Source: Sabellastarte sp. h YS-2021 (lineage: Eukaryota > Annelida > Polychaeta > Sabellida > Sabellidae). From it: a DNA stretch of 64,000 nt. Below, one piece after another: positions 339-59,049 of this stretch; the first letter of the stretch is position 1, and each line of letters opens with the position of its first letter. A program made the position numbers and the translations under genes. Location of the stretch: the NCBI GenBank assembly GCA_964017235.1, contig OZ024928.1, positions 2,356,001 through 2,420,000 of the forward strand, written 5' to 3'. Below the pieces are notes generated by a model, which saw nothing but the letters and a program-made list of their open reading frames with translations, was not told where the DNA came from and did no database searches.

Positions 339-481
339 TCACCAGCTGCTCTTATTCATTTCCACTGGTGTCAGTGTGGATTTAGGACGCATTTGTGTAC
401 TAGCTGGAGTCATTCCATCAGGATCTAGTTCCTCTTGCACCTTTTTGTCACGTTTCCTGACCATCAAGTAAGAAACTGCAA
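339..481 (-). CDS. Exon 24: end of the helix, cytoplasmic tail, stop
   Basis: Starts in phase 1 after TTTTCTAG. Encodes VAVSYLMV, then Arg-Lys-Arg-Asp-Lys-Lys (stop-transfer) and a tail of about 39 residues ending Asn-Lys-Ser-Ser-Trp, TGA at 341-339. No kinase, ITAM or clear PDZ-binding motif is visible. Confidence 0.85.
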
Positions 482-3400
482 CTAGAAAAAAACATGCAAA
501 ATTAAACATTGTGACACTTAATTTTCATACTTTGAATTCTGTTATAATTTTAAAATTTAAAAAAAATGGTTACTTTGCTCCAATGGTAATAATCAGCAAG
601 AAATGACTGTTTTGGACTTTTGTTTGTATAAGTGTATCTGTTAGATACCGCCTGTGCATTAATAGGCAGATTTGTATGACTAAACTTCACCTGGGGGACT
701 TAAGCCCAGACTTAGACTTTGGTCTTAAATTTTATCAACAGAATGGTAAGTCCATGGTCTTAGACTTAGCGGATTTCATAAAGCCGCTCAAAGTCCATGA
801 AATTGCTAAGTCAGTGGACTTAACTTTAAGTCTGGAAGGCAGTGGTCTTAAATTTTGTAAAGAGGACTTAAATATACCCACCATAAACTTTTATCCACTT
901 CAAAATTTGAAATGGCTGTAAAGAAAGTATAATTATACAGAAGACCTCACTAAAATAGTCTTTGGGAAGTTTATATGTGGTAACAAGGTTTTCCATTTCA
1001 AAACAGCACTTTTCCTTAGATAAAATGCATCAAATGAAGAGTATATGCCACCAATAGTATATTTTGAACAGATATAAAAGGTCACATGACACACAAAGCC
1101 GCTGTGGTTATATGATAAGCTTGGACTTAGCTAAGTCACCCTTTGTGAAATCCATTTAAGTCCCAGACCTAGCTAAGACCAAAGTCTTAGATTTACATCC
1201 CAGACTTAGCTAAAAACTTGGCTAAGTATAAGACTCCTTCGTTAAATCAGCCCGTGGGTAAGAGTATTATGTTCTCTTTTCAAAGGAGTCATCACACCAC
1301 AGAAGCTGAGGACATGCCCTAATATAAAGCTGTCTGTTGAACAGGACATAAAACCCCAACTTTGACTTCAACAGAGATAAGTCATATCACCACAAAATTA
1401 AGCTGTAAGTACCTTACCAATAAAAATCTTTCATTGTGACTAATGGGGCAGAAATACTAACTCGCAAAGGTTTTTAAATATATTCGAAAATATGATGGCC
1501 ATCTAAATCAAACAGCGACACTACATTCTCATAGAACTTTTATAGTGCTTAATCTCTATGTGCAGATACCTAAAGAATCTCGCAAATGGAGAATTTTGAC
1601 AAAATCATATACACCCCTTTATCCTCCCCTTCAACAGAGACACAGTGGTGCAACAGATTACAGACAGCCTCACACCTCACCGAGTCCTGGGTTTGATTAC
1701 CGGTTCATCCTCTACAGGGAAAGTTATTAGTTGCTTGTAGTGCCTAATGGTTTTCCTTATAGAAACCAACTAGTATACATTGCTTCCCACCACCCCACCA
1801 CCCCACCCCAGTTAGAGGTTGGTTTATATATGACCTATGTAATGTGTGGAAAGCAAGGTCAAAGCCAATCAATCAACAAGGATTGAATGATTGAATCAAA
1901 TATCTGTGGATGGCTTTTGAAATAGAGCATTCTTTTCACGTGCAACATGCTAATAGTTTAAGTTCTAAATTCCATAATAAGGACCAGAAATACTGGCTAT
2001 AAATGGAGTCTTTTAATTAGGTCATACAATAACAGTAAACAATTATTCAACGGCAGAAATATAAAGTAAATTGTAATTTTAAAGATATATATTTGTTTAA
2101 TTTAAATGTGCTGTAACCAGCCTTTACAATAGAAATAATGTCCCTGAGTTTGTACTTAATTAGTGAATTTAGGATAAAAATCCACTATGATGGATTTAGG
2201 CCTGATGTATTTTGTTTGTCATCATTGGGGGCTTTATCAGACAACTAGTAGTCAACAGCTAAGTGCATCTGCAGGTGCCATGTCTGACTCTATAAGTCAT
2301 TTGACTTTCCTTCTGCACTGTGTAATTAAAAGTCTTCATACATTGCACAAAGGTGATTTAAATTTGAGGTTTATGTCCTATTCAACAGCCAGGATTATAT
2401 TGGGATAGGTACCCGCATTTCCACTTGTGGGAGTTGTACCCACACATAGAGGTGCTAATCCACTAATCCATTGAGGGCCTCCTGTTACACTGTTTAAAAT
2501 ATGTTTACATGGACATTATGGATGACTGTGTGGTGTACGTTTTATCAATTACAATAAACTCTTCTATCTTAGGATTTTATGTGGTGCAGTTGCATACTTC
2601 TCTGTTGATCTGTTGATGACACAGGGGTTAATTAAATTTGCATTCGTACAGTCCAACCTGTCCTTTTATTGCGCAAAATCACCAAAGTAAATCATGGTAA
2701 CAGACTGTCTCTATCTGGAGTCAGTATCTACAAATGAACTCGAGGAATTGTGCAGTTGCAGCTCCTTTTGGAGTGGAATATGTAGTTGTCAGCCCACAGT
2801 AAACCATAGCTTCTTTCCAATCCATATTAAAACACATATCTTTTTACAGCAAATTGTATCTCTGATCCCTATACCCTGCCTCTAGCCTGGTAAACGTTTA
2901 TTTTGGTTTTGGTAACTGGACCCTCCCTTATTTGGTCATCAGCGCCTTAGTAAATAGTCACTTAAATATGGGACCACACAAATCATTCATATCAATTAAC
3001 CATATATCAGACTGAGTAAAAATGGCATATATTCTTACCAAAACAATCTGAACCCACTAATGCTGCAGCTACAGCAGGTCCAACAATGTACCACATCATG
3101 GGTGAGTTGGAACGGTCAGCACCACTGGATGCGTCATCTCCCAATTGCGCAAGAATATCTGCAACAATTGTTATTTTTTTCAGTACCTATTCAAAAGTAG
3201 TAGTAGTGAGCGCCTGTGTGGCAGCATAACTATGAAACTCCAGCATAAAGCACTTTTTACACTGTTTCTATGAAAGGATATGTCACATATTTAGTATCAG
3301 GCTATAGAAGAAATTACATGGTAAAGTGTGATACTGTGGTTTCTACAAACTTTCTGAGATAGTAAGTCTAAAATCTGAATAAGTGTGTATAAGTAATGCA

Positions 3401-6400: not shown

Positions 6401-9400
6401 ACCCAAGTTTGTTGGATGTATTTTCCATTTTGTCTTTACCCGAGTATGTATATTTTTGATCCTATTTTTCTTTGAAATATCTTATTGATATTGATGGATT
6501 AAATAAGAATCAACTGAAATTTAGTCATCATTAAAACAATATCACAGTGATATTTTCATTGACGTTTGGCTCAGTGAATTGAACATAATCATGGTCAAAC
6601 AATAATCGAAATTGGACCAGAAGTAGAAATCGGACCAGAAATAAGAAATGATCATTTAAACTAAGATTACTTCAGCCATTCTTTGCCTGTTACAGTCATT
6701 ATACAATGTTTGGACTAGACCTCATGACAATATTACCAGCATCACAGTTGGTCCCCGTGTATTCAGCTGTACATTCACAGGTGTAGCCGTCAGCTTTGTC
6801 TCTACACTGGCCACCATTTTGACAAGGGGAGTCGGCACAGGTCACTCTAGTCTGGTTACCAGCTTTAATATAATTAGGAGAAAAAAAGGGAAAAAATAAC
6901 AAAGAAAAATATTTTCAGTGAAGTAAAAAGAATTAAGCTTTTTTCTTCAAGTTGAGCAATTGATTCTATCTTTTATGCCCCTGTTCCACCACACGACTAA
7001 GGCTCCCGATTAAGGTATTTGGGGAATGGGTTTCCCAAAAATATAGAGTCCTAGGAAGTCGGCTTGAGTCTGTTTGGGTTGGTTGCTGCCAGTATAAAAA
7101 TCAAACATGTTTGATATTTTGCACGATTGTAACTGATCCACTTTTGACCCTACCCACCTATTTCCTAGTCCCAGGCTTCCTGATTCCTCCTCAGACCCCA
7201 ATTACACAATCCTACGTTGTCTGAGGCCTCCTGGGATTCATACCTTAGCTTAGTCCCAGGAGGCCAGGACTTAGTCCCAGATTGATCCCCAATCCACCTT
7301 GAAAAAGGAAAAACAAAAATCTGCCATTGCAGTCTAAGGAAATCAGTTATTAGTCCTAGGAGGGCTGAGGCGGCCTCAGACCAGTCTGAGACCCAGTCTG
7401 TATATCCCTGATCACAAACGTGGCTTAATCGCTTCTTAGTCACGGAATGATTGTGAGTTGTCTGAGGACGTCTGAGGCTTCCTGAGGATGATCTGAACTT
7501 CATCAAAGAACTGGATCAAGATTATTTTACATTTTCCCACCCAGTTTTCAGATTTTTCTCACCGACTCTCAAAAATTAAGGGTCGTAGGATAAATCAGGG
7601 ATTAATCCTTTGGTGGAACAGGAGCATTACAATCTATGAGTTGTGATTTTTATACTTTTTTTATGTTTCTTCCTCATACCACAATATTTAAGATGCAGAG
7701 AGTATTACTTGGGTGGTGCATAGTTATAAAATAATCACTAGAGATGATAAATCAATCCAATAATCAGATTCCAATAAGACAATTATTGCGTGTTTCGCCT
7801 TCAATGACATTTAAAAAAAACACTTTAAACAAGGCCAAATGGAGTTTCAGTCTACTAGCACAAGACACAAAGTAATAAGGAGATGAGTGATGCACTGAAA
7901 TGGTCACCCATCCCAGTACTGGCGTAGCCCATTGTTGCTTAACTTCAGGGATTTGACAGGTACTCATCATGCTACGCCACAATTCATGAAAGTCCGGAGA
8001 CAAAAAACAACAAAGAAGAAAAAAGTGATCTCTAGAAGTGTGAGCCTTGCCAGAGCAATAGATCTGAATCCCATAAAACTGAACAGAAGCTGTGTAAAAA
8101 TGCCTTTCTTATGATTAAAGTTGCAGGCTACATAGTCTGCATATACCCTGGTTTGTACTTCCAAGTTTGTCAGTTAAATTTGGCTCATGGTGGATAAACA
8201 GAGACATCTATAGTATATAACAGGAAACAGTTTATACCTAAGACGTCTTCACATCTTGAGCCTGTATACCCGGATGCACAGAGACATGTATACGGATTAC
8301 CAGTGTCATTGCAAGTTCCGCCATTTTCACATGGATTGGGGTCGCATCCACTTCTGGGTGTATTATCTAAAATTTAATATTATGCATAAATTAATAGTTT
8401 ATTTATTTGGGGTTTTACGTCATTTTCAACACTGTACAGGTCATATCATGATCGGTATTTTTGTGGGCAGAGGAAACCAGTACGTACAGTTGATTAAGGT
8501 TCTGTACTGTAAACTGCCAACAATAGGTAAGCAACTACCAACTTTCCCACAAAAGGTCCGGGGTTGAACTGCAAACGTCAGAGGTGGGAGGCGAGTGTGT
8601 TACCACTGCGCCACCATGGTCCCCCACATAAATTAATGGAGTTTTTCCAGATAAATCATTTACATAATGTCAGCTATTATCTCCACTAGAAGGTATGTGT
8701 TTGGATGTGTTGTTTTTGTTTGTTTGTCTTCAGCAAAGGAAGTAATGGGTAAATTTGGAAAAAAGATCTGGATCGTACTATCGAAACAAAAATTCTACAG
8801 TCTCATTTTTGATTATTAGGGGCTAAATGAATGCTACTTAAAGGTAATAGATCTATTGAATCAGAGAAATAACATTATGACATGTGAAGAATTAGGGTCA
8901 CAACCGAATTGGAACACCAGTATCCTCCATACTAATTCTCTTTTAGCTGCTATACCAAAAAGGTGGAAGTCAAAGATAAATGGTAGTGCATTTAAATTTC
9001 AAGGAACACCATGTTTTAGCCTAGTAATAAACAAGTGTATAACACCAAGATATAACTTATATAATTGGAATAAAATTTCCAGTAATAAGTGTTTCCACTG
9101 TTTTAACGTTGATACTTTAGAACATCACTTATACTACTGTCCTGTGTCAACAAAGTTTTGGTGTGAAATAAATAATTTCCTGCACAACACCATTTCAGTA
9201 AAAATACATTTTTCAGTATGTAAAATTTTGTTTGGCATATTCAATTATTTATATTTATGATGATGTATTTATAATAATAAATTTAATTATATTATTGGGG
9301 AAATGGTTCCTTAATAGTCGTAAATCAAGTGAAAGACCTGTCATTTTCTCCGAGTTTGTAAAAACGTTAAAAGATAAACTAGAAAGTATTAGAGTGTGCC

Positions 9401-51400: not shown

Positions 51401-54400
51401 TAATTTGTTTATTCGAGTTTGATAGCACCATACTTTGACAATAAAACAAACCTTTGACACAAAAGTAGCAAATTATTCAAGGTCATAAAATAGATTATTT
51501 AACAAAAAAGTTGCAACTTAATCATTTTTAATTGGTTGAAATACTCTTCCATGTTAATAGTTTGCTGGCAGCAACTCGTTGTTGGGGATTTTTGTTAAAA
51601 ACTAACAATCGACAGTGAAGGTGAAATGTTTTTTCCCTTTCTTCCATGACATCTATGAATAATTTACACAGCCTACGTTATGAGATCCCTGCTGTTTTAG
51701 TTGTTTGAGAGCCACCTTAAACAAATATATGGTATATGTTTTTTTAAGTAAGGCCTGCCTGCTGGACCTATATCCCACAATACTTAGACCATTTCTAACT
51801 TAGATTTTAAGTATTACTTAGATTTCGAGTAAGAAATTATGAAACTGAACACTCCTAACTTATATTTCGTGAATACTAAGTGCAAGAAAAACTTAAGTGA
51901 AAACCTTCCCTTACTTAGATCTAAGGTCACATTTTCTAAGTAATGCTGCAGAATAGCGTCCCTGATTTACAAATATTGAGGCCTGGTCATGTGTGTCCCC
52001 TTTATTCACACTTTAAAGTAGGGAATTGTTGTAGTCAATTCGACTACTGATCATTAAGTTTGCCAGCAGTATCCACATTGATAAATTTAGGAATGCGTCT
52101 GAAATCTTTAAGATAATAGTAGCAAGCACGACAAACCTTGGTTATATGACTGGCAAAGGTGTCCAGAATCAAAATTTACACCTAACCTCTTAACTCCATT
52201 GGTTGGGCAGATAGAATTTCAAAGAAAACTGGGTGTGAAATTTTTGCAAAAAGTGATCCTATCAAGTTATCCCACATCAGGGTGCTTCTGCCAATAATGG
52301 CGTTTCACATCTTGCATAATTTATACTGTGTTAATAAAGAAACTTCAAAATGTGTTAGCACTTTAGAAAACGTTTTTCTGTTAACTCTTCTATTACTTCA
52401 CAGAGAGGGACTCTCCAGCCATGTGAGCCTAAGTGTGTCATTCCACCATCAACAGTTAGTCTAAAGTCATACAGGGTTACTTTTGACGATCAGATTAATA
52501 ATGTTTTCTTGACTGGCAATGCCTCTCTCAGTGCAACCCAATGTAATGTAATGGCTTGAGGCATGTCTTTGGATTCTATGAGGAAGTTCCCAGATGTTAC
52601 TTATAGATTCTCCAGATTACTTAGGAGTTATGGACAAGAGGACAAGGAAGGTTTACTTCAATGTAAGCCAGCTCCCCTACAAAAGTCAAGTTGTTTTATA
52701 ACTCATGATACATGCACATTGATGAATTTCTCAATTGGGTGTTTAACTGAGGCTGACCTGACAACCAAAATACCAGCTAACCGAAAAAAAAACAGAAAAA
52801 GGCATGGTTTGGTCACTTTCCAAACAAGATGTAGCACATCCCAAATTATCTGGATCCCAACTTGACTTAGGGTTGAAATGTTTTTCTCCACGACTAGATG
52901 GGAGACTAGTAGGAACAGCCGTAAACCCATAACAGACAAGCTCTATCAGGCCACAAGCCGCAGTGACAAACTGACAAGGACCCATCTTATAAATTAAATA
53001 AAAAAGCAGCATTTGTAAAAAGACAGAAGCCTTTCAACAAATCAGCACAATTTGTATCTCAACACTAAATCTGAATTTAATTTGGAAAAAAGGACTAAAT
53101 CTTATCTTAACACTGCCAGGAGTGATACATCAGATGCCGAAGCCCAAATGATGAATTACGCAAATCAATCACCTTATAAAGTCACAGATTTCAAGCTGTG
53201 GGTCAGTAAAATGAGGCCACCCTATCCCACACACTTCCCTGCCTGTCTGTTGCTGTAACCGCCTTGTTTGTGTCTCTTTATGGCTTTTCCTGGTGTGTTT
53301 CAAGCTTGTCCTGCTGAGACTTTGCAAGTGTCTTGATGGGAAGTGACCAAGTCAGGTCGGGGATGTTTACGATAGGACTGGTTTCTTTTCAAGTGGGGTC
53401 AGTTTGTGTCTACGGCCTATTGTGAACTGGTGTCCAGGTGCTGAATCATGACAGGTTGGCAAGTGTTTCTTGACAATGCGGTAACAGTATAGGATAAGGC
53501 AGGAAGTGTCTATGACAAGCCCCTGAGACACACAACAGGTCTGTTACTTGGTGGTCAGAGCCAGGATTGTTATCAAGAGTCATGTAGGAAAATATTGAAA
53601 TATAAAACCTGTATGATATTTTGTCAAGCCAGTGCAAAATGCTGAGAAACCTACAACCGACCCTAACCAACTCTGTCAACATTGATTATTTGGTTGTAAA
53701 GTTTTGTAACTATATTGTGGTAAAATGGTCTCGCTGAAGCGATATGCATACTGATATTTACTCACACCTACTTAACCTACATATTTTACTTACCTCACTT
53801 TGACAAGCAGACTTAGCTTTGCATTTCTTTGTGATTCTCAGATTTCCATTGTCGTTTCTCACTTCAGTCTGGCATCCTCCCTTGATACATAAACATAACT
53901 CAGTACATTAAAATACATATTAAACTGTGACACAGTAACAGGGGCGTAGGAAGCAATTTTTGGTTGGGGGGCGAGGAACTAGATTGCACCGACGCGACTC
54001 GACACCTACAATTTTGGTTAATTTTACAGTAGTATGTATGTAGGTAATATACAAATTCAAATTGTCCAACTAAAATATTTTAAAGTTAGTTTACCAAAGA
54101 AAATCTTTGTGGTGACATCATCCTAAGTTTCACAAACCTTGTATGGGTATAGAAATACATATAGTCACCTCGGGTTTTGAAAGTACGTATTTCTAATATC
54201 TTGACTACATGTTTCCAGAACCTGTGACCTTTCCTTCAAGAGCCGAGCTGATGCAAGATCTATTATAGCAAGGTTAAGCCTCATATTGATGGGGATGTAT
54301 AATCATTGGACTGCCTAGGCCCAATAAACACACAGTAAAGAAAGAAGAGTTTTCTGGGAAAAATCTTATCAGCTGACAAATTGCTGTGCCAAACCATTGC

Positions 54401-57400
54401 TCTGTGTGAATTTGAAACTACATGTCTAAGTTTTAAATAATTAGCAACACGGTAAATTAAATGTAGAAGATCATTATATGTATGATTTTGGTCTACATAA
54501 GTGAAACGTTCTACAGATTTTTACAAATGCCATGACAGGTTAACTGAAAATGTTCCTTTTACAAATCATAAAAATAAATATTTTATAGTTCAAATGGCAG
54601 CTTACACAATGGTACATGCGAGCAGTGAACAGGGTAAAAGAGTAATTTGACCACATATTATTCAGTTACTTGTAAAAATTTACGTAAATTTCAAAATTGG
54701 AATTAAGTTCTATTGCAAAAAGTTGGGGGGACGAAAAGATATCACCGCCGCCCCAACTTTATGGTTGGGGGGACGGCTGCCCCCGCTGCCCCCCAGTTCC
54801 GAGGCCTATGTCAGTATTAGAAAAAAAAACATTTTTCCTCAAGAAAATAAGCTTTTTACCCCTTTTTAACAAATCAGATGATCCAGTAAAACAACAAAGG
54901 ACACCTTATGTAAGAATTGTTGTGGAATAAGACTATTCTTAGCTTAGATATTCTGGTTTCCAAGTTTACACTTAAGTGAAAAGAATAGGGAGTTTGTTAA
55001 CTTAGAATCTAAATAATAGTTAACAACGTAGAGGTTGATGAATAGAAAATCCAAGTAATACTTTGGTAAGTAGAAGCCCATTCCTCAGTTGGATCTAAAG
55101 TGACATTAGCAAAGTATTGTTGAAGAATACTGCCCCTGGCCTCACCGCCTAGGTTCAGGGCTCAATAGTTAGGCTTGATCTGAAATCTGAAGTTGATTAC
55201 TGGTGCCTAAATGGCATATAGTGTGTAAATTCCCACTGGTATGCACTGTTCATCCATCTTATCAACAACTCAACGACATGACCAAACCAGTTTTTTAAAA
55301 GTTACATTCAAGCCACAATAAATCAAATCAGTCACTGACATGTGTTTCTGATATAAATAACTTACAGTGTCCCCAGAATCACACGTAGCCAGGTAGCCAT
55401 TTGCTCTGCAGTCCCGGAAGTTGGCTTCATTTGTGCAGGTCCAGCACTTACTGGCATCTGAAATATAAAAGAATAAAATGAAAAAGATGATATATGAAGA
55501 AAACTCATTTCCATTATGAATAAAACTCATTCGCATTTTAAATAACAAGTCCTCTGGATTACAGGGCATGAGCTGCAAAACCATCAGAGACACGAGTAGT
55601 GCAATAGAATTCATGAAAGTGTGGTGACAAATATACATACCATACCGGAATAGAAGGAAGACTGTCACCCATGAAAGTATTAACACAGCTCATCGATGGG
55701 TAGCTTCAGTAACAAGAGTTGTACCCGTATTGCTACACAACAATTCAAAATACTCCAGTGACAAGTAAAAAAAAATTTAAAAAGTAATGAGAGTTACTTA
55801 TTACTGAAAGTCACAATCCCTCTATGTATGCCAGGTTTATCCAAGGAACTTGTAAGGCCACTGGGCGTCATTGTTAACAGGAAGATTACTAGTATAACTA
55901 GAATTGTGGACAAAGTAGGTGCTACAAATGGAAATATGTGTCATACCACTCAAAACATAGATTGTAAGTAATTTTAAAAAAAATCTCCTTGAATCAGCCC
56001 CAATAATAAGCATAATATATTTCTTTAGCATAGGTCATACAATACACAAGTCATATCTAAGTTATAATCATTTTTTCTTAACCATGATTACTAATTATTG
56101 TAAAAACCTATTAAATGATTTACTTTATATTTGTCTTTTATCTTCACAAAGATCATCAAAGGTTTTAAGATAATCTGTGTCTATGTAATCTATGTATCTA
56201 AGAATGCTTAAAGAAAGGAGAGAGAGGCCTTTCTATATTTAAACTAATTGCACATTTCATAACTAGCATTGGATTGGTATGTATAGATTATGGACATGCA
56301 ATTAAAATGACTCACTTATTGTCAGTTCAATGTTTGGCATTGGTATATACAGGCTACACAATATATCAATTACTACAGGATTAAAGGCACTAGTGAACTC
56401 AATCTTACCTCTTAAATAAAGTCAAAGCTCTAATGAGTAACGTTCCCCAGTACTTATACACAGCTATTTGAACCTTTACTACAGTTATCTTCACTTTAAA
56501 TTTTTTTGCATCCATGATGATATGATTTAACCCGATCTTGTTCCTGTAAGAAGTTCAAACTCATGCGAAACACTCGGTTTATTTACACCGGTGCTGATAT
56601 ATGAGTCAGTGTAAAAGCGATTTTTGCTTGCTAAAAAAGTCTTTAACATTTTGGGGGGATCAGAGAACATTGTTGTTACAGTCCCCCCCACCCCAGGAAA
56701 GGAAACACACATCTGAGGAAATTTAATTTATTTATAATACATTCAAATTTATTATTACAATGCTATTACAATTACTATGCAGGACTACTAAGACTATTTA
56801 CAGACCATTGTTTCATATAAGTATACACATACAAGACCATTTAGTATTAAGAGTTTTTAAAGTCATCCATAGTTACATTCAACATTAAAGTTCACTTAAG
56901 GTGACCTTAAGCATGAGTAATACACGAGAAATAATGAATAAAGATACAATATAAGTAAGATATTTAAGGTCACCATAACAGTTAATACGAGAATTTGTAA
57001 TTCAACACTTTAAGATGACCTTAATAACATATGATACAGACAGATGTAAATATTATGATGTATATATGAATAATGCACATGCATACACCTAGTAAATGAC
57101 CCTGAATTACACAAGACATAATAATTGTAAAGATAAGATCATGTAAAAGAAAAAATAAGTACATTAAAAGACTAAAACTAGATTAAAAATTTAAGACTGG
57201 GCTCATAGGTAGCTGCATGCAGGCCCCAGGCTGTCGCTTTCTTAGTGGGATTCAAACCCAGAACTCCCACGCTTTGGGCCATATATGGCCGAGAATGTGG
57301 TGTGGGTGGGTGGGCAACAAATTTTTTGACAGTTCTTGTCCATTTGGTTTCAAAATTTAAAGTGAGGAATAAGAGACCAAGAAGCTCTATGTGACTAATG

Positions 57401-59049
57401 CTGACCAATGAAATTGCAGGATACAAATTGCTATGGGAAACCCCAGAATGTGCTAAGTTGTACACAGAGAAAACAGATTTAAGGTAACCTTCCACTTTCC
57501 TGGGGTGGGGGACTGACAGGCGTGATGCCTAGACACCACTATTGACAGTCCCCCCCACCCCAGGAAAGGAAACACACATCTGAGGAAATTTAATTTATTT
57601 ATAATACATTCAAATTTATTATTACAATGCTATTACAATTACTATGCAGGACTACTAAGACTATTTACAGACCATTGTTTCATATAAGTATACACTTTAA
57701 TAAATATTTTCAGCAAAAACGTTAGCATATAGAATGTTTATAAACTGTTTTTAAATTTTACAGTGTAAATATTTACTTGGAAACATTTAGTAACCCAAAA
57801 GATAGGATTTAAATAGCTTTTAAAGATATTTTGTAAACTTCTACACCATTTTAAAGCCTTTTTAATGTTTACTGTTTACAAACAATCTATAAGCATGTCA
57901 GGCTTACATATTAAGTTGCAAAAATGCAGTACTTTTTTCCCTTTAGTGAGCTGATAGTTTTCATAAATTACCTTGATATAGATTTGAACCCAAGACTACA
58001 ATCAAGTGATCAGTGGTCTTATCACCGATTATAAAAGATCATAAATGCCAGCCTCTTATTCTGTGGTTCTAATATATTCGTCGGATGAAAACCGTATAAA
58101 TACACATAACACATGCAAACCAAATTGAAATTTTGTGCTCAAAGTTGTGTCATTTTTTAACATTAACTGATTGGTAAGGGTCTGAATTTATTGTCTATTT
58201 CATATTTTGGCAATTCACATCAGGTGACAAATTACCAATAAGCCAGAGCTTTAAATCTTAAAATATGCCAAACTGTGACTGTATTAAAGATACCTTTTAA
58301 AGGGTGATATCAGCCAAACTATATAGACAACATTGCAATATAATCCAATAGAAACACTCTTTAAACTGAAAACAAATAGTGAACTAGATACTGATATCAG
58401 ACCGGAAATAGTGATCTGGTCATTTCAACTGAAACTGATCCGATAAAAAAGGAGAATCATTTGGTGTCAGATTGTATCATTTTTTCATAACATATAATAT
58501 TAAAACTTACCACATTACATATACAAAAAATATGTCATGCTTGATGATGACAATATAATAAGAGTAGATAGCCATTTACAAGTGAATAGTCAAGTTTACG
58601 GTAATACATCAGCACGGGTAGCTTCACAAAAAATGTCTCCCTTTCAGCCTTGAGTGGATAACATAGACAATGAGTTTCATATGAAGTATCAAACTACAGT
58701 ATCTTAAATACAGTGTTTATGTGAGAAAACATTTGAAAAAAGAAGCTACAATTAATTAACTTAGTTTATTCAATGTAATATAATTTAACAAAACATCGAC
58801 CACTAGAAACCATAATTTGGCATACACCATAAATTGGCATATGAATATAGCACTCAGCAAGAATAACATCTGATCAATCAGATTTGTAAAAACAAAAAAT
58901 ATATATATATTTTTAAAGGTGGCTCCTTTTTTACAAAATTGAAAATATATAAAAAATCAGACATATTATAAAATACAAAATAAACATTCAGTACCTCCGT
59001 AACATTGGCTTAATATCCCCAATAAAATAAAAACCATAAAACCGGCCAT
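339..59049 (-). CDS. Signal peptide, (LU, chitin-binding type 2) x2, 13 EGF repeats, transmembrane helix: single-pass membrane protein, 24 exons
   Basis: Joining the 24 exons listed separately gives 2784 coding bases and 927 residues with no internal stop. Order: signal peptide 1-18, LU 19-107, CBM14 108-174, LU 175-270, CBM14 271-339, EGF 340-840, juxtamembrane and helix 841-888, basic tail (Arg-Lys-Arg-Asp-Lys-Lys) 889-927. Every junction has GT donor and AG acceptor (minus strand) and phases fit throughout: 1 before each CBM14 and EGF exon, 0 inside the LU domains. Predicted location is the plasma membrane with the cysteine-rich part outside. LU and EGF domains usually bind proteins and CBM14 usually binds chitin, so a matrix-contact or adhesion receptor is plausible, but function is inference. 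Transposons fill the introns without touching the exons. The model lacks transcript support; non-coding 5' exons, the true TSS and the poly(A) site are unknown. Confidence 0.85.
664..1254. mobile_element. MITE family M1, copy 1 (diverged)
   Basis: About 590 bases, homologous along its length to 63022-63566. Ends are imperfect inverted repeats rich in GACTTAAGTC and GACTTAG motifs (AAGACCAAAGTCTTAGATTT near the right end). No transposase. An 81-residue open frame inside is not a gene. Lies in the last intron. Confidence 0.75.
1255..3038. other. Intron 23 remainder
   Basis: No gene. At about 1620-1700 a tRNA-like stretch (CAGTGGTGCAA, then GGGTTTGATTACC) could be a worn SINE head; otherwise nothing recognised. 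Confidence 0.4.
3039..3158 (-). CDS. Exon 23: juxtamembrane linker and most of the transmembrane helix
   Basis: Phase 1 to 1, 120 bases, acceptor TTGCAG, donor GTAAGA. A polar linker ([17 protein letters not shown]) leads into [16 protein letters not shown], then Ser-Asp-Cys-Phe before the junction. A weaker in-frame GT lies 15 bases upstream (exon end 3054); using it would drop the polar residues from the helix. Confidence 0.8.
3159..3655. other. Intron 22 proximal part
   Basis: No coding or repeat structure recognised. Confidence 0.4.
3660..6070 (+). mobile_element. LINE A: degenerate APE-type non-LTR retrotransposon (Jockey superfamily, CR1/L2/Rex1-like)
   Basis: Endonuclease pieces: NAQSARNK and LTETW (3831-4145), then GDFNIH and HTLDLVITR (4212-4457) and SDH. 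The endonuclease end runs almost straight into the RT start near 4590, so the linker between them is deleted. RT pieces at 4494-5165 include [32 protein letters not shown] and YADD (Y-A-D-D-F). The C-terminal part continues at 5191-5403 and 5388-5971 in shifted frames. The 3' end is an ATT-repeat tail near 6055-6067, as in CR1/L2-like elements. Multiple frameshifts, the deletion and the lost 5' part show it is dead. It lies in intron 22 opposite to the host gene. Confidence 0.85.
6071..6736. other. Intron 22 sequence between LINE A and EGF13
   Basis: Nothing recognised on either strand. Confidence 0.4.
6737..6862 (-). CDS. Exon 22: EGF domain 13 (membrane-proximal)
   Basis: Phase 1 to 1, 126 bases, acceptor TAAAG, donor [25 protein letters not shown]..., last EGF before the membrane. 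Confidence 0.88.
6975..7627. mobile_element. MITE with 17-base terminal inverted repeats
   Basis: Left end ATGCCCCTGTTCCACCA and right end TGGTGGAACAGGAGCAT are inverted repeats with one mismatch. The interior repeats AGTCCCAGGAGGCC-like motifs on both strands and has no transposase. About 650 bases. Two apparent open frames inside (7010-7201, 7165-7506) follow from the palindromic composition. Confidence 0.75.
7628..8237. other. Intron 21 remainder
   Basis: No gene or clear repeat. Overlapping short open frames on both strands are not supported by codon structure. Confidence 0.4.
8238..8366 (-). CDS. Exon 21: EGF domain 12
   Basis: Phase 1 to 1, 129 bases, acceptor TTTTAG, donor [29 protein letters not shown]...SRC, then Glu-Asp-Val-Leu. 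Confidence 0.88.
   Translation of the reverse strand: MIHPEVDATPIHVKMAELAMTLVIRIHVSVHPGIQAQDVKTS
8396..8626 (-). mobile_element. tRNA-derived SINE, family S-I, copy with target duplication
   Basis: The 11-base duplication CATAAATTAAT at 8385-8395 and 8627-8637 bounds it exactly. Read on the minus strand it starts with a tRNA-like head (TGGCGCAGTGGTAACAC as A box, GGTTCAACCCC-like B box) and ends with GACGTAAAACCCC and an AAATAAATAA tail. Homologous copies lie at 28148, 31190, 37478, 60741 and probably 17553. Confidence 0.85.
8825..9465 (+). mobile_element. C-terminal fragment of an L1-type LINE (reverse-transcriptase zinc-binding region)
   Basis: Translation contains [20 protein letters not shown] followed by FW, the CxxC...H...C zinc-binding motif (zf-RVT) found after the RT domain in L1/Tx1-type elements. 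Preceded by [14 protein letters not shown]. The frame changes near 9232-9260. 5'-truncated; no catalytic domain remains. It shows that an L1-type lineage, whose relatives can copy poly(A) RNAs, has been active in this genome. Confidence 0.7.
9480..10918. other. Intron 20 remainder
   Basis: No gene identified. The last 60 bases before EGF11 (10861-10918) are homologous to the corresponding flank of EGF10 (12470-12506), marking an exon-plus-intron duplication. Confidence 0.4.
10919..11032 (-). CDS. Exon 20: EGF domain 11
   Basis: Phase 1 to 1, 114 bases, donor [18 protein letters not shown]...[12 protein letters not shown]. Confidence 0.9.
11465..11806 (+). mobile_element. LINE 3' end fragment (CR1/L2-like)
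   Basis: The frame 11526-11648 reads [13 protein letters not shown]... [13 protein letters not shown] stop, the typical C-terminus of these elements (compare [18 protein letters not shown] and LINE B APKLWND). The 3' end has GGAGATTAAGCACCTGG and a (GATT)n tail at 11783-11806. 5'-truncated. Confidence 0.8.
11807..12506. other. Intron 19 remainder
   Basis: Nothing recognised apart from the duplicated EGF flank at its right edge. Confidence 0.35.
12507..12629 (-). CDS. Exon 19: EGF domain 10
   Basis: Phase 1 to 1, 123 bases, donor [18 protein letters not shown]...[12 protein letters not shown]. Sister of EGF11 in both exon and flanking intron. Confidence 0.9.
12790..12950 (-). mobile_element. 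tRNA-derived SINE, family S-II, partial copy
   Basis: The minus strand carries GGCCAAGTGGGTAACA (A box-like) and GGGTTCAATTTC (B box-like), then a GACCACTTAAA block shared with the copies at 15559 and 39299. Confidence 0.5.
12951..13897. other. Intron 18 remainder
   Basis: No gene, repeat or RNA structure recognised. Confidence 0.35.
13898..14014 (-). CDS. Exon 18: calcium-binding-type EGF domain 9
   Basis: Phase 1 to 1, 117 bases. Starts ETDEC, then [12 protein letters not shown]; ends NNCQT like EGF10 and EGF11. It is intermediate between the two groups. Confidence 0.9.
14015..15357. other. Intron 17
   Basis: About 1.3 kb without a recognised gene or repeat. An open frame at 14322-14669 has no recognisable domain. 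Confidence 0.35.
15358..15468 (-). CDS. Exon 17: calcium-binding-type EGF domain 8
   Basis: Phase 1 to 1, 111 bases, donor GTGAGA. EGF5 subtype (CDNGGNC...[12 protein letters not shown]). Confidence 0.9.
15559..15869 (+). mobile_element. tRNA-derived SINE, family S-II
   Basis: About 310 bases, homologous to 39299-39625 along the whole length: tRNA-like head, GACCACTTAAA-type block, GTCATTGGGTCCTGT, AATGGTCATC, TTTTCAGTTAG, ending CTGAGTATAAAT. Confidence 0.65.
15925..16690 (+). mobile_element. Degenerate LINE reverse-transcriptase fragment
   Basis: Reading across frameshifts gives [35 protein letters not shown] and a KDLRRLR block, the palm YADD box and downstream motifs of CR1/L2-like RT. 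Ends near ATTAAGCACTTTGA. The frames are broken. Confidence 0.65.
16700..17030 (-). repeat. Dispersed repeat R1, copy 1
   Basis: Minus-strand sequence is homologous to 42240-42400 plus strand, including the region translating as [14 protein letters not shown] here and [14 protein letters not shown] there. No known domain recognised. Confidence 0.5.
17553..17752 (-). mobile_element. tRNA-derived SINE, family S-I, diverged copy
   Basis: Shares with 8396-8626 the blocks TTTTAACGTC, GGAAACCAGTAC, TGTAAACTGC and GGAGGCGAGT in the same order. Worn, with no clean target duplication. Confidence 0.6.
17784..17894 (-). CDS. Exon 16: calcium-binding-type EGF domain 7
   Basis: Phase 1 to 1, 111 bases, same subtype as EGF6 ([12 protein letters not shown]). 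A SINE copy ends about 30 bases past its donor. Confidence 0.9.
17895..19193. other. Intron 15 (EGF6 to EGF7)
   Basis: No gene. 18300-18370 (GTTAAAACATTGACAATGCAGAAAA...) resembles the introns around 28040 and 28900, so it belongs to the duplicated EGF units. 18980-19110 resembles 27410-27520. Confidence 0.6.
19194..19304 (-). CDS. Exon 15: calcium-binding-type EGF domain 6
   Basis: Phase 1 to 1, 111 bases. EGF2/3/4/7 subtype ([12 protein letters not shown]). Its flanking intron resembles that of EGF5. The 8.3 kb intron separating it from EGF5 holds the LINE cluster. Confidence 0.9.
20257..21579 (-). pseudogene. LINE B reverse-transcriptase open frame (440 residues)
   Basis: Encodes fingers, palm ([16 protein letters not shown]) and the start of the thumb/C-terminal region of an APE-type LINE. 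The catalytic palm looks intact. Upstream continuity with the endonuclease half is lost through the tandem duplication and a frameshift. Confidence 0.85.
21523..22036. repeat. Tandem duplication of 256 bases inside LINE B
   Basis: 21523-21778 and 21781-22036 match almost perfectly; I see two substitutions (CTCATC/CTTATC and GGAACAG/GGAAGAG). The duplication is therefore younger than the LINE insertion. Confidence 0.92.
21878..23350 (-). pseudogene. LINE B endonuclease open frame (490 residues)
   Basis: Apurinic-type endonuclease with N-terminal hydrophobic leader and 2A-like motif, ending prematurely at ...KISKIMG stop inside the duplicated segment. The next frame continues [14 protein letters not shown] into the RT half. 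Confidence 0.85.
23755..25550 (-). mobile_element. LINE C: 5'-truncated relative of LINE D
   Basis: Minus-strand frames 24999-25202, 24396-24773, 24349-24546 and 24010-24318 match LINE D in order: [37 protein letters not shown] and LRARDLYRI-type blocks. The YADD box reads VADD and the frames are broken, so the element is dead. Confidence 0.8.
25556..26310 (-). mobile_element. LINE E: remnant of a LINE B-like reverse transcriptase
   Basis: 26003-26281 reads [12 protein letters not shown]...[12 protein letters not shown]...[10 protein letters not shown]; 25558-25785 reads [19 protein letters not shown]. Both match LINE B in order, but the YADD region between them is missing. LINE C begins exactly where this remnant stops. 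Confidence 0.75.
26617..27171. mobile_element. MITE, TA target site, TTCGCG-rich
   Basis: 555 bases bounded by TA dinucleotides (26615-26616, 27172-27173). Terminal inverted repeats begin CTGTATAAGTGGTTATTTTC on the left; the right end is the complement of CTGTATAAGTGG. Subterminal GCGAAAAT/TTCGCG repeats. No transposase. TA target sites suggest Tc1/mariner-type mobilisation. Confidence 0.8.
27596..27706 (-). CDS. Exon 14: calcium-binding-type EGF domain 5
   Basis: Phase 1 to 1, 111 bases. Belongs to a second subtype (CDNGGNC, ...[12 protein letters not shown]) shared with EGF8. Lacks the O-fucose Ser/Thr before the third cysteine. Confidence 0.9.
28148..28367 (-). mobile_element. tRNA-derived SINE, S-I related, variant head, with target duplication
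   Basis: GCATTGGCATA at 28137-28147 and 28368-28378 flanks it exactly. The minus-strand head reads GGTGTAGCGGTTAGAG (A box) and GTTCAAATCTCGGG (B box), a better tRNA match than the other copies. The distal half shares the GGAAACCAGT and ACTGTAAAC blocks with S-I. It sits at the boundary of a duplicated EGF unit. Confidence 0.8.
28428..28538 (-). CDS. Exon 13: calcium-binding-type EGF domain 4
   Basis: Phase 1 to 1, 111 bases. Like EGF2, but with CNPNPCNN at the first two cysteines. A SINE has inserted just past its downstream flank (28148-28367). Confidence 0.9.
29050..29160 (-). CDS. Exon 12: calcium-binding-type EGF domain 3
   Basis: Phase 1 to 1, 111 bases. Nearly identical to EGF2; the visible protein difference is Val-Val for Ala-Asp after the fifth cysteine. 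Confidence 0.9.
29455..29565 (-). CDS. Exon 11: calcium-binding-type EGF domain 2
   Basis: Phase 1 to 1, 111 bases. Starts ETDEC and carries the C-x-D-x4-Y-x-C-x-C hydroxylation motif. It sits in a tandemly duplicated exon-plus-intron unit. Confidence 0.9.
30034..31185. other. Intron 10, unassigned part
   Basis: AT-rich sequence without recognised coding content; open frames at 30123-30347 and 30663-30887 have no supporting features. Confidence 0.35.
31190..31370 (-). mobile_element. tRNA-derived SINE, family S-I, truncated copy
   Basis: Shares GGAAACCAGTATATGCAGTT, GGTTCTGTACTGTAAACTGC, AAGCAACTACCAACTTT and GAGGCGAG with 8396-8626. The AAATAAA end is missing. Confidence 0.7.
31940..32540 (+). 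mobile_element. Degenerate LINE 3' region
   Basis: Across frameshifts the plus strand reads [22 protein letters not shown], later [14 protein letters not shown], the conserved C-terminal blocks of CR1/L2-like RT. Ends in an ATT-repeat run near 32515-32535. Confidence 0.65.
32541..33634. other. Intron 10, part next to EGF1
   Basis: No gene or repeat recognised. Overlapping open frames on both strands at 33264-33545 are mirror shadows. Confidence 0.35.
33635..33751 (-). CDS. Exon 10: EGF domain 1
   Basis: Phase 1 to 1, 117 bases, donor GTGAGT. Six-cysteine EGF (CDNNPC...[12 protein letters not shown]...GTIC). Lacks the Asp-x-Asp-Glu calcium-binding start seen in EGF2-9. Confidence 0.88.
33752..35007. 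other. Intron 9
   Basis: AT-rich, with short ATT repeats near 34945-34975; nothing else recognised. Confidence 0.35.
35008..35214 (-). CDS. Exon 9: chitin-binding type-2 domain 2
   Basis: Phase 1 to 1, 207 bases. Cysteine spacing is C-x13-C-x5-C-x9-C-x17-C-x6-C. The fourth-to-fifth loop is longer than in domain 1 and the last shorter. The same two extra cysteines (SCxxxC and QSC) are present. The Asp-Ala-Tyr block precedes the third core cysteine. Diverged but clearly paralogous to exon 5. Confidence 0.75.
35215..37014. other. Intron 8
   Basis: Holds a 44-base tandem duplication (36289-36376); otherwise nothing recognised. Confidence 0.4.
36289..36376. repeat. 44-base tandem duplication
   Basis: Two adjacent copies of GGGTAAAATTTATAATTCTG...AGCTGGCAATG, identical as far as I can read. 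Confidence 0.9.
37015..37105 (-). CDS. Exon 8: LU domain 2, C-terminal part
   Basis: Phase 0 to 1, acceptor TTTCAG, donor GTAAGT. Encodes ...[11 protein letters not shown], the second copy of the LU closing signature. Confidence 0.87.
37478..37676 (+). mobile_element. tRNA-derived SINE, family S-I, sense copy
   Basis: Read 5' to 3': CAATGGTAGCACAGTGGTAA (A box region), GGTTCAAACCC (B box, 37530-37540), TACAGTATAGAACC, then GACGTTAAAACCCAAATGAATAAATC at the 3' end. It sets the orientation of the family. Confidence 0.8.
38341..38400. repeat. Poly(C) followed by (AC)n microsatellite
   Basis: A run of about 14 C, then about 12 AC units and CCCACACACCCC. A second C-rich run lies at 38532-38560 and a T/G-rich run at 39055-39095. 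Confidence 0.95.
38679..38780 (-). CDS. Exon 7: LU domain 2, middle part
   Basis: Phase 0 to 0, 34 codons, donor GTAAGT. Begins Gly-Gly-Cys-Gln-Thr as exon 3 does and carries the equivalent cysteines. It is five codons longer, ending Ser-Glu-Ala-Thr-Asn-Ser. Confidence 0.85.
39299..39625 (+). mobile_element. tRNA-derived SINE, family S-II
   Basis: Head CTAGCCTAGTGGGCAACACA (A box) and GAGTTCAAATCC (B box), then the GACCACTTAAAATGGCAGTC block, ending CTGAGTATAAATAA. Homologous to 15559-15869. It ends about 20 bases before exon 6 on the downstream side. Confidence 0.75.
39646..39740 (-). CDS. Exon 6: LU domain 2, first part
   Basis: Phase 1 to 0, acceptor TTTCAG, donor GTAAAC. Encodes FKCWTCSS..., matching exon 2 at all cysteines and at the closing Asp-Thr. 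Confidence 0.85.
40104..41080. mobile_element. Foldback (long terminal inverted repeat) element built of short palindromes
   Basis: Left arm 40104-40237 and right arm about 40915-41080 are inverted copies, starting TGTTACAGTAAATATG and ending with its complement. Each arm holds several copies of the perfect palindrome AGTAAATACGCGTATTTACT or variants. Flanks TGTATA and TGTACA may be a degraded target duplication. No coding sequence. Confidence 0.8.
41081..41600. other. Intron 5, part next to exon 5
   Basis: Nothing recognised. Confidence 0.35.
41601..41801 (-). CDS. Exon 5: chitin-binding type-2 (peritrophin-A, CBM14) domain 1
   Basis: Phase 1 to 1, 201 bases. The six core cysteines have spacing C-x13-C-x5-C-x9-C-x12-C-x8-C, which is classic peritrophin-A, with the aromatic Y-x-x-C and the G-L-V-W-N-D block before the fifth cysteine. 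Two additional cysteines (ECxxxC and HSC) are present and recur in the second domain. Chitin binding is expected from the family but untested. Confidence 0.85.
42240..42500 (+). repeat. Dispersed repeat R1, copy 2
   Basis: Homologous to the minus strand of 16700-17030. Upstream, CCCCTTTCACACTACAGGTCGTA (42073 onward) looks like a transposon end. No known domain. Confidence 0.45.
42501..44059. other. Intron 4 remainder with a GTA-rich microsatellite
   Basis: 43900-44050 is an imperfect TAG/GTA trinucleotide array ending about 10 bases from the exon 4 donor. The rest is unassigned. Confidence 0.6.
44060..44147 (-). CDS. Exon 4: LU domain 1, C-terminal part with the CCxxDxCN signature
   Basis: Phase 0 to 1, donor GTGAGG. 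Encodes ...[11 protein letters not shown], the closing signature of Ly6/uPAR (three-finger) domains. Domain 1 has 12 cysteines in total, more than the usual 8-10. A GTA-rich microsatellite lies immediately downstream of the donor. Confidence 0.88.
44640..44963 (+). pseudogene. Harbinger transposase, N-terminal fragment
   Basis: Translates in part as [20 protein letters not shown], then [15 protein letters not shown], closely following the conserved LAITLRxLATGxxY...V region of PIF/Harbinger (DDE_4) transposases. It ends NVPHTVGA stop just where the family has GAxDGKH, the first catalytic Asp. Internal stops and a deletion show decay. Confidence 0.8.
45102..46433 (+). pseudogene. LINE D N-terminal and endonuclease frame (last 38 codons belong to an insertion)
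   Basis: Residues 1-137 are a hydrophobic leader, 138-145 the 2A-like motif, about 148-370 the endonuclease with GDVNIH, HTIDLV and SDH intact. Native coding sequence ends at 46318; the rest is read-through into the poly(A) insertion. Confidence 0.85.
46319..46704 (+). mobile_element. Poly(A)-tailed insertion (probable processed RNA copy) inside LINE D
   Basis: The duplication AATTCTGATGC occurs at 46308-46318 and 46694-46704, and the insert ends in about 18 A following AGAAATAAAA. Removing it rejoins the LINE frame (...NNSDA to LYSQYHSTL). It has no tRNA-like promoter, so it looks like a 5'-truncated copy of a polyadenylated transcript. The possible coding tail ([14 protein letters not shown]... 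stop at 46431-46433) is not recognised. Confidence 0.8.
46705..47395 (+). pseudogene. LINE D linker between endonuclease and RT
   Basis: Continues the native frame after the insertion: [48 protein letters not shown], then a stop at the start of the RT domain. Confidence 0.85.
47474..48784 (+). pseudogene. LINE D reverse-transcriptase frame (436 residues)
   Basis: Contains [89 protein letters not shown] and the C-terminal [10 protein letters not shown]. The catalytic YADD is intact. A frame break separates it from the linker. Confidence 0.9.
48949..49440 (+). pseudogene. Harbinger transposase, C-terminal fragment
   Basis: Reads [32 protein letters not shown] (second catalytic Asp), [19 protein letters not shown] (catalytic Glu region) and [12 protein letters not shown]. 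Clear PIF/Harbinger DDE_4 signatures, with at least two internal stops. It is continuous with 44640-44963 once LINE D is removed. Confidence 0.85.
49441..50332. other. Harbinger interior or intron 3, unassigned
   Basis: T-rich, no domain recognised; 49837-50205 is an open frame without recognisable motifs. Confidence 0.35.
50333..51240 (-). pseudogene. Possible second Harbinger protein (MADF/BESS-like), broken
   Basis: The proximal part, in a frame other than the longest open one, reads [13 protein letters not shown], then an acidic Glu/Gln-rich linker ending [14 protein letters not shown]. The distal part (50333-50611) reads [20 protein letters not shown], then [13 protein letters not shown] and a Q/P-rich end, reminiscent of a BESS-type tail. 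The 152-residue basic frame at 50695-51153 is a shadow of the acidic one. Opposite orientation downstream of the transposase fits the two-gene layout of Harbinger elements. Frameshifted and not functional. Confidence 0.4.
51241..52730. other. Intron 3 sequence, mostly unassigned
   Basis: 51780-51970 (ACTTAGAT- and TAAGT-rich) resembles 54950-55140 and may be a transposon end. No gene seen. Confidence 0.4.
52731..53690 (+). mobile_element. Second, internally deleted Harbinger-like copy
   Basis: 52800-52960 matches 44470-44600 (AAGATGTAGCACATCCCA, GACTAGATGGGAGACTA, CATAACAGACAAGCT blocks). 53620-53690 matches 51215-51285 (GAAACCTACAACCGACCCTAAC). The transposase is missing between them. It ends about 100 bases downstream of exon 3. 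Confidence 0.5.
53794..53880 (-). CDS. Exon 3: LU domain 1, middle part
   Basis: Phase 0 to 0, 29 codons, acceptor CAAG, donor GTAAGT. Begins Gly-Gly-Cys-Gln-Thr and ends Ala-Cys-Gln-Ser-Glu, the same frame as exon 7. The exon lies in repeat-rich sequence, with transposon-derived pieces on both sides. Confidence 0.85.
53940..54815. mobile_element. Probable MITE with G-rich ends
   Basis: Left end GGGGCGTAGGAAGCAATTTT then GGTTGGGGGGCG; right end GCCCCCCAGTTCCGAGGCCTATG, roughly its complement. No coding sequence. It lies about 60 bases upstream of exon 3. Confidence 0.5.
54950..55140. repeat. ACTTAGAT-rich repeat, similar to 51780-51970
   Basis: Shared block GGATCTAAAGTGACATTAGC... GAAGAATACTGCCCCTG versus AGATCTAAGGTCACATTTTC... 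CAGAATAGCGTCCCTG. Perhaps Harbinger-type termini. Confidence 0.4.
55366..55457 (-). CDS. Exon 2: LU domain 1, first part
   Basis: Phase 1 to 0, acceptor TTTCAG, donor GTAAGT. Encodes the opening CWTC motif and two further cysteines, ending ...CDSGDT. It aligns with exon 6 at the same cysteines and the same phases. Confidence 0.85.
55458..56678. other. Intron 1, proximal part
   Basis: No gene or repeat recognised. Confidence 0.35.
56679..57515. mobile_element. 837-base element with C/G-rich terminal inverted repeats
   Basis: Starts CAGTCCCCCCCACCCCAGG and ends with the complement (CTTTCCTGGGGTGGGGGACTG), differing by two C. No transposase domain seen; the frame 57178-57495 is unsupported. 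No clean target duplication found. Confidence 0.65.
57546..57695. repeat. Identical 150-base copy of the left end of the 56679 element
   Basis: 57546-57695 equals 56679-56828 as far as I can read. It begins 30 bases after the first element ends and has no matching right end. Confidence 0.9.
57696..58994. other. Intron 1, distal part
   Basis: AT-rich, unassigned. Confidence 0.35.
58995..59049 (-). CDS. Exon 1: start codon and signal peptide
   Basis: Encodes 18 residues: Met-Ala-Gly, a hydrophobic core, then Ser-Gln-Cys-Tyr-Gly, a typical cleavable signal peptide. The ATG has A at -3 and G at +4, a strong initiation context. The exon ends at a GTACTG donor in phase 1, which matches exon 2. 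Confidence 0.8.

Follow-up and report, generated by a model that had tools for sequence, protein, structure and literature searches.

LU domains have been linked to contacts between proteins; chitin binding is not universal among CBM14 domains. The insect cuticle Ly6 protein Retroactive, which we compare by description, links a Ly6 domain to chitin biology; according to a section of its source, it has 150 residues with 10 conserved cysteines, it acts in chitin organisation with loops predicted to touch chitin, and the authors favour an action via Knickkopf trafficking, perhaps with no direct protective role (PMC3561106). At that length it would be too short for the other modules. Chitin-binding domains are described in molluscan matrix proteins (PMC11291548), here represented by the shell matrix proteins Pif/BMSP. 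Pif and BMSP combine these domains with VWA, which is absent by Pfam scan from the protein modelled below. Fibropellin-, Notch- and Crumbs-type arrays share tandem EGF modules with this protein, which carries an N-terminal LU-CBM14 block instead. According to a passage published in 2011, the Ly6 module never occurs together with further extracellular motifs (PMC3058042), and a passage of another paper has EGF domains absent from the Ly6/uPAR superfamily (PMC9293771).

Our analysis of a 64,000-nucleotide stretch of the annelid Sabellastarte sp. h YS-2021 (the window) confirms a set of exons, probably forming one gene, in which known modules appear in an order not found elsewhere in our searches. 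After translation of the window in six frames, 24 exons with GT/AG ends were rebuilt from splice borders on the minus strand from 59049 to 339; all 23 junctions agree in phase, no stop codon interrupts the exons, and the product of 922 residues reads signal peptide, LU, CBM14, LU, CBM14, 13 EGF, membrane helix and basic tail. A first-pass annotation had described 24 exons joining without frame conflict, and all of them were present, with the outer ends at 59049 and 339; the domain order that it gave is supported by the in-frame joins and by a cassette duplication described below. Every extracellular domain of the model is flanked by phase-1 introns: each LU copy is spread over three exons of phases 1-0, 0-0 and 0-1, with internal phases 0 and 0 in both domains, and each of the two CBM14 and 13 EGF exons is 1-1. 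Profiles built from the exons and scanned against 1511 stop-to-stop frames of at least 25 residues recovered the six LU parts, two CBM14 and 13 EGF exons, all at E 3e-16 or better; for additional domain copies or missed exons these 1511 frames gave weak matches only (three EGF at E 0.015-0.37, one LU exon a at E 0.036). The window holds no Rfam family at gathering score and no tRNA.

The first LU domain (LU1) is encoded by exons a (55366..55457; this and all following exons on the minus strand; profile E 4.2e-22), b (53794..53880; donor score 7.7) and c (44060..44147; donor AAG/gtgagg, 8.0, the top score in the model), and the second (LU2) by exons a (39646..39740), b (38679..38780) and c (37015..37105), all three recovered by the exon profiles. 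Each domain has 12 cysteines with a CxxC start and a CC-x(4)-CN end, in line with the LU pattern of at least 10 cysteines. Scanned alone against Pfam, LU1 reached 17.1 bits with PF00087 (cut-off 21.2, E 0.0097) and LU2 15.9 bits with PF16975 (cut-off 31.5, E 0.015), the latter just behind the unrelated family PF03277 (E 0.012). A search with LU1 at E up to 5 against 177,635 solved sequences brought three matches only, LYPD1 and twice LYPD6, aligned end to end at E 0.039-0.083; a two-row LU profile reached E 0.91 at best. When LU1 was shuffled with its cysteines fixed, 4 of 500 shuffles equalled the real local score against LYPD1 and 7 of 500 that against LYPD6, the corresponding counts for LU2, which on its own does not stand out from its shuffles, being 41 and 199 of 500; one LU1 shuffle used as a query still picked up LYPD1, at E 0.49, along with an unrelated protein. 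These comparisons lend some support to a marginal resemblance of LU1 to LYPD1/LYPD6 that may go beyond its cysteines. LYPD1 shares with LU1 the same 12 cysteines and the C-x2-CC-x4-CN end; the solved chains of LYPD1 and LYPD6 are single domains of 86-104 residues, whereas the LU domains of this protein, two in number, are interleaved with CBM14 and precede the EGF modules. LU2 is classed with LU1 because the two are 45% identical, and the LU identity of both domains is supported, though less firmly than the EGF and CBM14 domains.

The two CBM14 domains (CBM1, 41601..41801, and CBM2, 35008..35214) have eight cysteines each. Scanned alone against CBM_14 (PF01607, cut-off 22.1 bits), CBM1 scored 35.2 bits (E 1.4e-8) and CBM2 18.2 bits (E 0.0028, under the cut-off), so that of the LU and CBM14 domains claimed in the first-pass annotation and tested singly, CBM1 passes its Pfam cut-off and CBM2, LU1 and LU2 fall short. 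The Pfam search that the annotation had proposed for the spliced protein listed EGF but neither CBM_14 nor any LU family. Among solved structures, chitin-binding beak protein 3 comes closest to CBM1 (E 3.1e-5); the fold prediction for CBM1 was poor (pLDDT 50). Aligned over 159 columns, LU1-CBM1 and LU2-CBM2 show 37% identity (pairwise E 7e-27) and the same intron phases, indicating that LU and CBM14 were duplicated jointly, as one cassette of four exons, which in turn argues that they share a transcript; between the cassettes pS is 0.80 (saturated) and pN 0.43.

The nearest CBM14 relatives found are the Patella vulgata 'lactadherin' P0001 and the protein P0002, which have the same 8-cysteine CBM14 pattern and are 39-51% identical to the two copies; identity reaches 48% between CBM1 and the CBM14 of the Patella protein and 47% between CBM2 and a CBM14 of P0002. 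P0001 carries PF00754/PF22633, which we take to be of discoidin type, and P0002 three CBM14 domains with Thr-rich linkers; no LU was found in either. The protein searches covered 5.8 billion proteins, but because they reach only sequences that have 5-residue words in common with the query and fall within a set length range, absence from them is not proof. Of 471 candidates for residues 1-345, a single protein was retrieved, the one with CBM14 from Patella; the cassette pair (122 candidates) retrieved P0002 and P0003, an LU1 exon a frame identical to the window's own; and residues 756-922 retrieved 189 EGF-type proteins among 683 candidates, with fibropellins, Crumbs, Notch and others among the 120 listed. 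Matches to the protein include Patella, Littorina, Crassostrea and Pinctada, which by themselves no more than hint at a lophotrochozoan origin. Against a set of 123 proteins (120 of the 189 EGF-type proteins plus three), the CBM14 copies matched only P0001 and P0002 at E below 0.01, and the LU domains matched only P0003. No relative combining LU, CBM14 and EGF was present among the matches listed from these word-limited searches, none was confirmed among 69 pattern matches in viral and 44 in prokaryote contigs, and no such protein was described among the listed titles and opening lines of abstracts in the open-access literature. The earlier statement that no named family has this order has thus held, within the limited reach of the protein searches, contig scans and literature and among the matches listed.

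The EGF array comprises EGF1 (33635..33751), EGF2 (29455..29565), EGF3 (29050..29160), EGF4 (28429..28539), EGF5 (27596..27706), EGF6 (19194..19304), EGF7 (17784..17894), EGF8 (15358..15468), EGF9 (13898..14014), EGF10 (12507..12629), EGF11 (10919..11032), EGF12 (8238..8366) and EGF13 (6737..6862), of which EGF3 is a tandem duplicate of EGF2 and EGF12 has a weak acceptor (-8.3) and a weak donor (-2.8). In the scan of the whole protein, the EGF model of Pfam hits 13 stretches (E 1.7e-97), and PF25024, the teneurin EGF model, also matches above its cut-off. By the usual consensuses, eight of the 13 modules carry a calcium-binding consensus, nine an O-fucose site and none an O-glucose site; an Asp/Asn hydroxylation motif, as given in part of PMC9293771, occurs in 10 of 13. 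The calcium and O-fucose counts suggest that the array may form a stiff, glycosylated spacer.

A 405-bp tandem duplication contains EGF2 and EGF3, whose exons are 98% and whose flanks are 90-91% identical; in certain pairs that include EGF5 or EGF9, the similarity of the flanks equals that of the exons. Pooled over 21 non-independent pairs of EGF2-8, pS is 0.297 against a pN of 0.050; the closest pairs, EGF2/EGF3 (pS 0, pN 0.023, no synonymous change) and EGF3/EGF4 (pS 0.046, pN 0.046), are uninformative. The pooled excess of pS over pN means that the frames were most likely kept as protein, and these values indicate that the repeats are under purifying selection. They bear on the idea that the locus is decayed or chimeric, its exons assembled by duplication with no functional protein, to which three LINE copies within introns and many weak splice sites would be congenial; set against the absence of stops in the exons, the in-phase joins and the pooled EGF pS well above pN, we regard it as very improbable. 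Scored with a generic table of frequencies, eight of the 23 acceptors exceed 0, as do 10.4% of all 3589 AG on the strand, and 15 score 0 or below, the lowest being those of EGF12 (-8.3), EGF11 (-6.4) and the membrane exon (-5.1).

The juxtamembrane stretch and the first part of the membrane helix are encoded at 3054..3158, and the end of the helix, a 40-residue basic tail and the stop at 339..481. The splice after the membrane exon as first modelled is doubtful: its donor TGG/gttcag scores -7.0, and an alternative in-frame donor 15 bases on, which would end the exon at 3039, scores 2.6 and gives a product of 927 residues. This better donor inserts GSDCF into the helix and lowers its hydropathy from 2.32 to 1.94, with the frame kept either way. 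Neither AATAAA nor ATTAAA occurs in the 338 bases of the window beyond the model, and the 3' end is therefore not secured.

By Pfam scan, the 922-residue model has none of the LNR, heterodimerisation and ankyrin domains of Notch and none of the LamG domains of Crumbs. Crumbs tails end in ERLI, whereas the modelled tail ends in NKSSW, at a 3' end that is not secured. A stretch of the membrane segment, WYIVGPAVA, recurs in the Crumbs-like protein P0123 (BLAST E 2.9e-4 in the set of 123 proteins). Crumbs membership was examined with profiles of 39 Crumbs tails and rejected, as helix and tail together were outscored by 67 of 1006 others (rank 68 of 1007) and the tail alone ranked 579 of 735 among shuffles and other proteins. 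The protein is accordingly not a Notch, since it is without LNR or ankyrin domains in the Pfam scan, and not a Crumbs, since it is without LamG, without ERLI as modelled and with a tail that the profiles did not single out. The 40-residue tail has no Pfam match, and its features, as judged by Pfam and the Crumbs profiles, leave a signalling role unsupported.

Whether the exons belong to one gene depends largely on where a transcript could begin and end. When the entire minus strand was searched for signal-peptide exons whose phase-1 donor scores above 0, nine candidates emerged; the plus strand yielded four. One minus-strand candidate lies upstream of the rest of the model and serves as its exon 1 (58995..59049), with the start codon at 59049, a second ATG at 59037, a signal peptide of hydropathy 3.21 and a phase-1 donor scoring 0.6; further minus-strand candidates start at 55536/55530, 29227, 28606, 18271, 17234 (hydropathy 3.50) and 5834. 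The start at 55536 gives LU1 exon a its own ATG with a hydrophobic read-in of 18 residues, and 55536/55530 may be an alternative first exon. At 29227 and 28606, an ATG with signal-peptide-like sequence reads in frame into EGF3 and EGF4, respectively; these read-ins may serve as alternative starts, or they may be accidental and preserved because the duplication is recent. In the minus-strand scan, no signal-peptide exon was found in the gaps between LU1 exon c and CBM1 (44060-41801) and between CBM2 and EGF1 (35008-33751).

The last gap is where a division into two adjacent genes would fall, one encoding LU-CBM14-LU-CBM14 with its own GPI-like tail and the other a separate EGF-repeat membrane protein. 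Reading through the CBM2 donor gives a 25-residue hydrophobic tail and a stop (34931..35007, stop at 34931-34933), closely followed by ATTAAA (34924) and AATAAA (34874), although motifs of this type are common in this AT-rich sequence; and the read-ins before EGF3 and EGF4 would offer the second gene a signal peptide, but a start there would leave EGF1 and EGF2 without one. The CBM2 and EGF1 borders are moreover phase-compatible across a 1.3-kb intron that yielded no signal-peptide exon, and we consider two genes rather unlikely. The in-frame joins, the cassette duplication, the signal-peptide exon at 59049 and the lack of another in the two gaps all support the one-gene reading of the first-pass annotation, and we infer that all exons lie on one transcript, although the further start-like sequences make separate starts conceivable.

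A single gene may still have more than one end. Each of the 23 donors was read through to the next stop and the hydropathy of the resulting tail scored, and GPI-signal-like tails emerged at two of them, LU1 exon c (hydropathy 3.88; a 25-residue Leu-rich tail with stop, 43983..44059) and CBM2 (3.02). At a hydropathy of 3.0, a threshold chosen after the tails had been seen, the controls that reached this level were 4 of 3604 GT within introns of this strand (three of which read into the two tracts just described) and 0 of 3656 on the opposite strand. Short anchored isoforms are therefore possible rather than established. It is conceivable that intron retention or alternative polyadenylation yields nested products, namely a GPI-anchored one-LU Ly6 protein (stop at 43983-43985), a GPI-anchored LU-CBM14-LU-CBM14 protein (stop at 34931-34933) and the full receptor, and both tails do sit where a domain is complete and a protein might stop. 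However, both are built from triplet-like repeats that could put them in frame by luck, the controls rise to 11 of 3604 and 16 of 3656 at a threshold of 2.5, and the LU1 exon c donor is the highest-scoring of the model; we hold this reading of the locus to be unlikely. The fuller proposal that one locus with one signal peptide encodes all three, the longest being an EGF-stalked transmembrane receptor, is quite unlikely in our estimation, but, if true, would be the first case on record of a Ly6 module forming part of a multi-domain matrix receptor.

For the single full-length product, the reading that we favour on balance, if by no wide measure, is that one gene encodes a type I membrane protein tethering an epithelial surface to a chitinous layer via its LU-CBM14 tip and EGF stalk. 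At the outer tip, two LU-CBM14 units would bind a chitin-containing extracellular matrix, the domain content suggesting that contact with chitin may be made through CBM14, and the LU domains could provide protein-protein or accessory chitin contacts. The stalk of 13 EGF modules would keep the tip away from the membrane, and the single helix and short basic tail would anchor the protein in the cell. The tethered layer may be shell matrix, cuticle, chaeta or gut lining. Chitin binding, tethering and tissue are proposed here by analogy with CBM14 domains and Retroactive, and the 'receptor' role is putative. If the model is true, the gene would break the rule, stated in the passage of PMC3058042 mentioned above, that Ly6 never combines with other extracellular motifs, and in lophotrochozoans it would be a candidate for connecting cells with chitin-containing matrices.

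The introns contain further elements. Three LINE copies, at 45096-48781 (plus strand), 20260-23422 (minus) and 4458-5804 (plus), all give reverse transcriptase matches, and the first two also endonuclease matches, that at 20260-23422 below the cut-off. In these two, a hydrophobic stretch is followed by a 2A-like motif, GDINPNPGP in the plus-strand copy and GDVASDPGP in the minus-strand copy. Both depart from the 2A motif D[V/I]ExNPGP as given in a portion of PMC4981915. A 258-bp tandem duplication with 99% matches (21523-22036) lies across the break between the endonuclease and reverse transcriptase frames of the minus-strand LINE. At 50142-51180 (minus strand), a patch of higher GC (0.44) holds overlapping Gln-rich and basic frames, including a 161-residue frame without a Pfam match, and could be a frame-broken retrocopy. 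The intron between CBM1 and LU2 exon a contains two arrays of a 29-base near-palindromic unit with the consensus TCAGTAAATACGCATATTTACTGAAATTT, at 40125-40238 and 40945-41059, about 700 bases apart.
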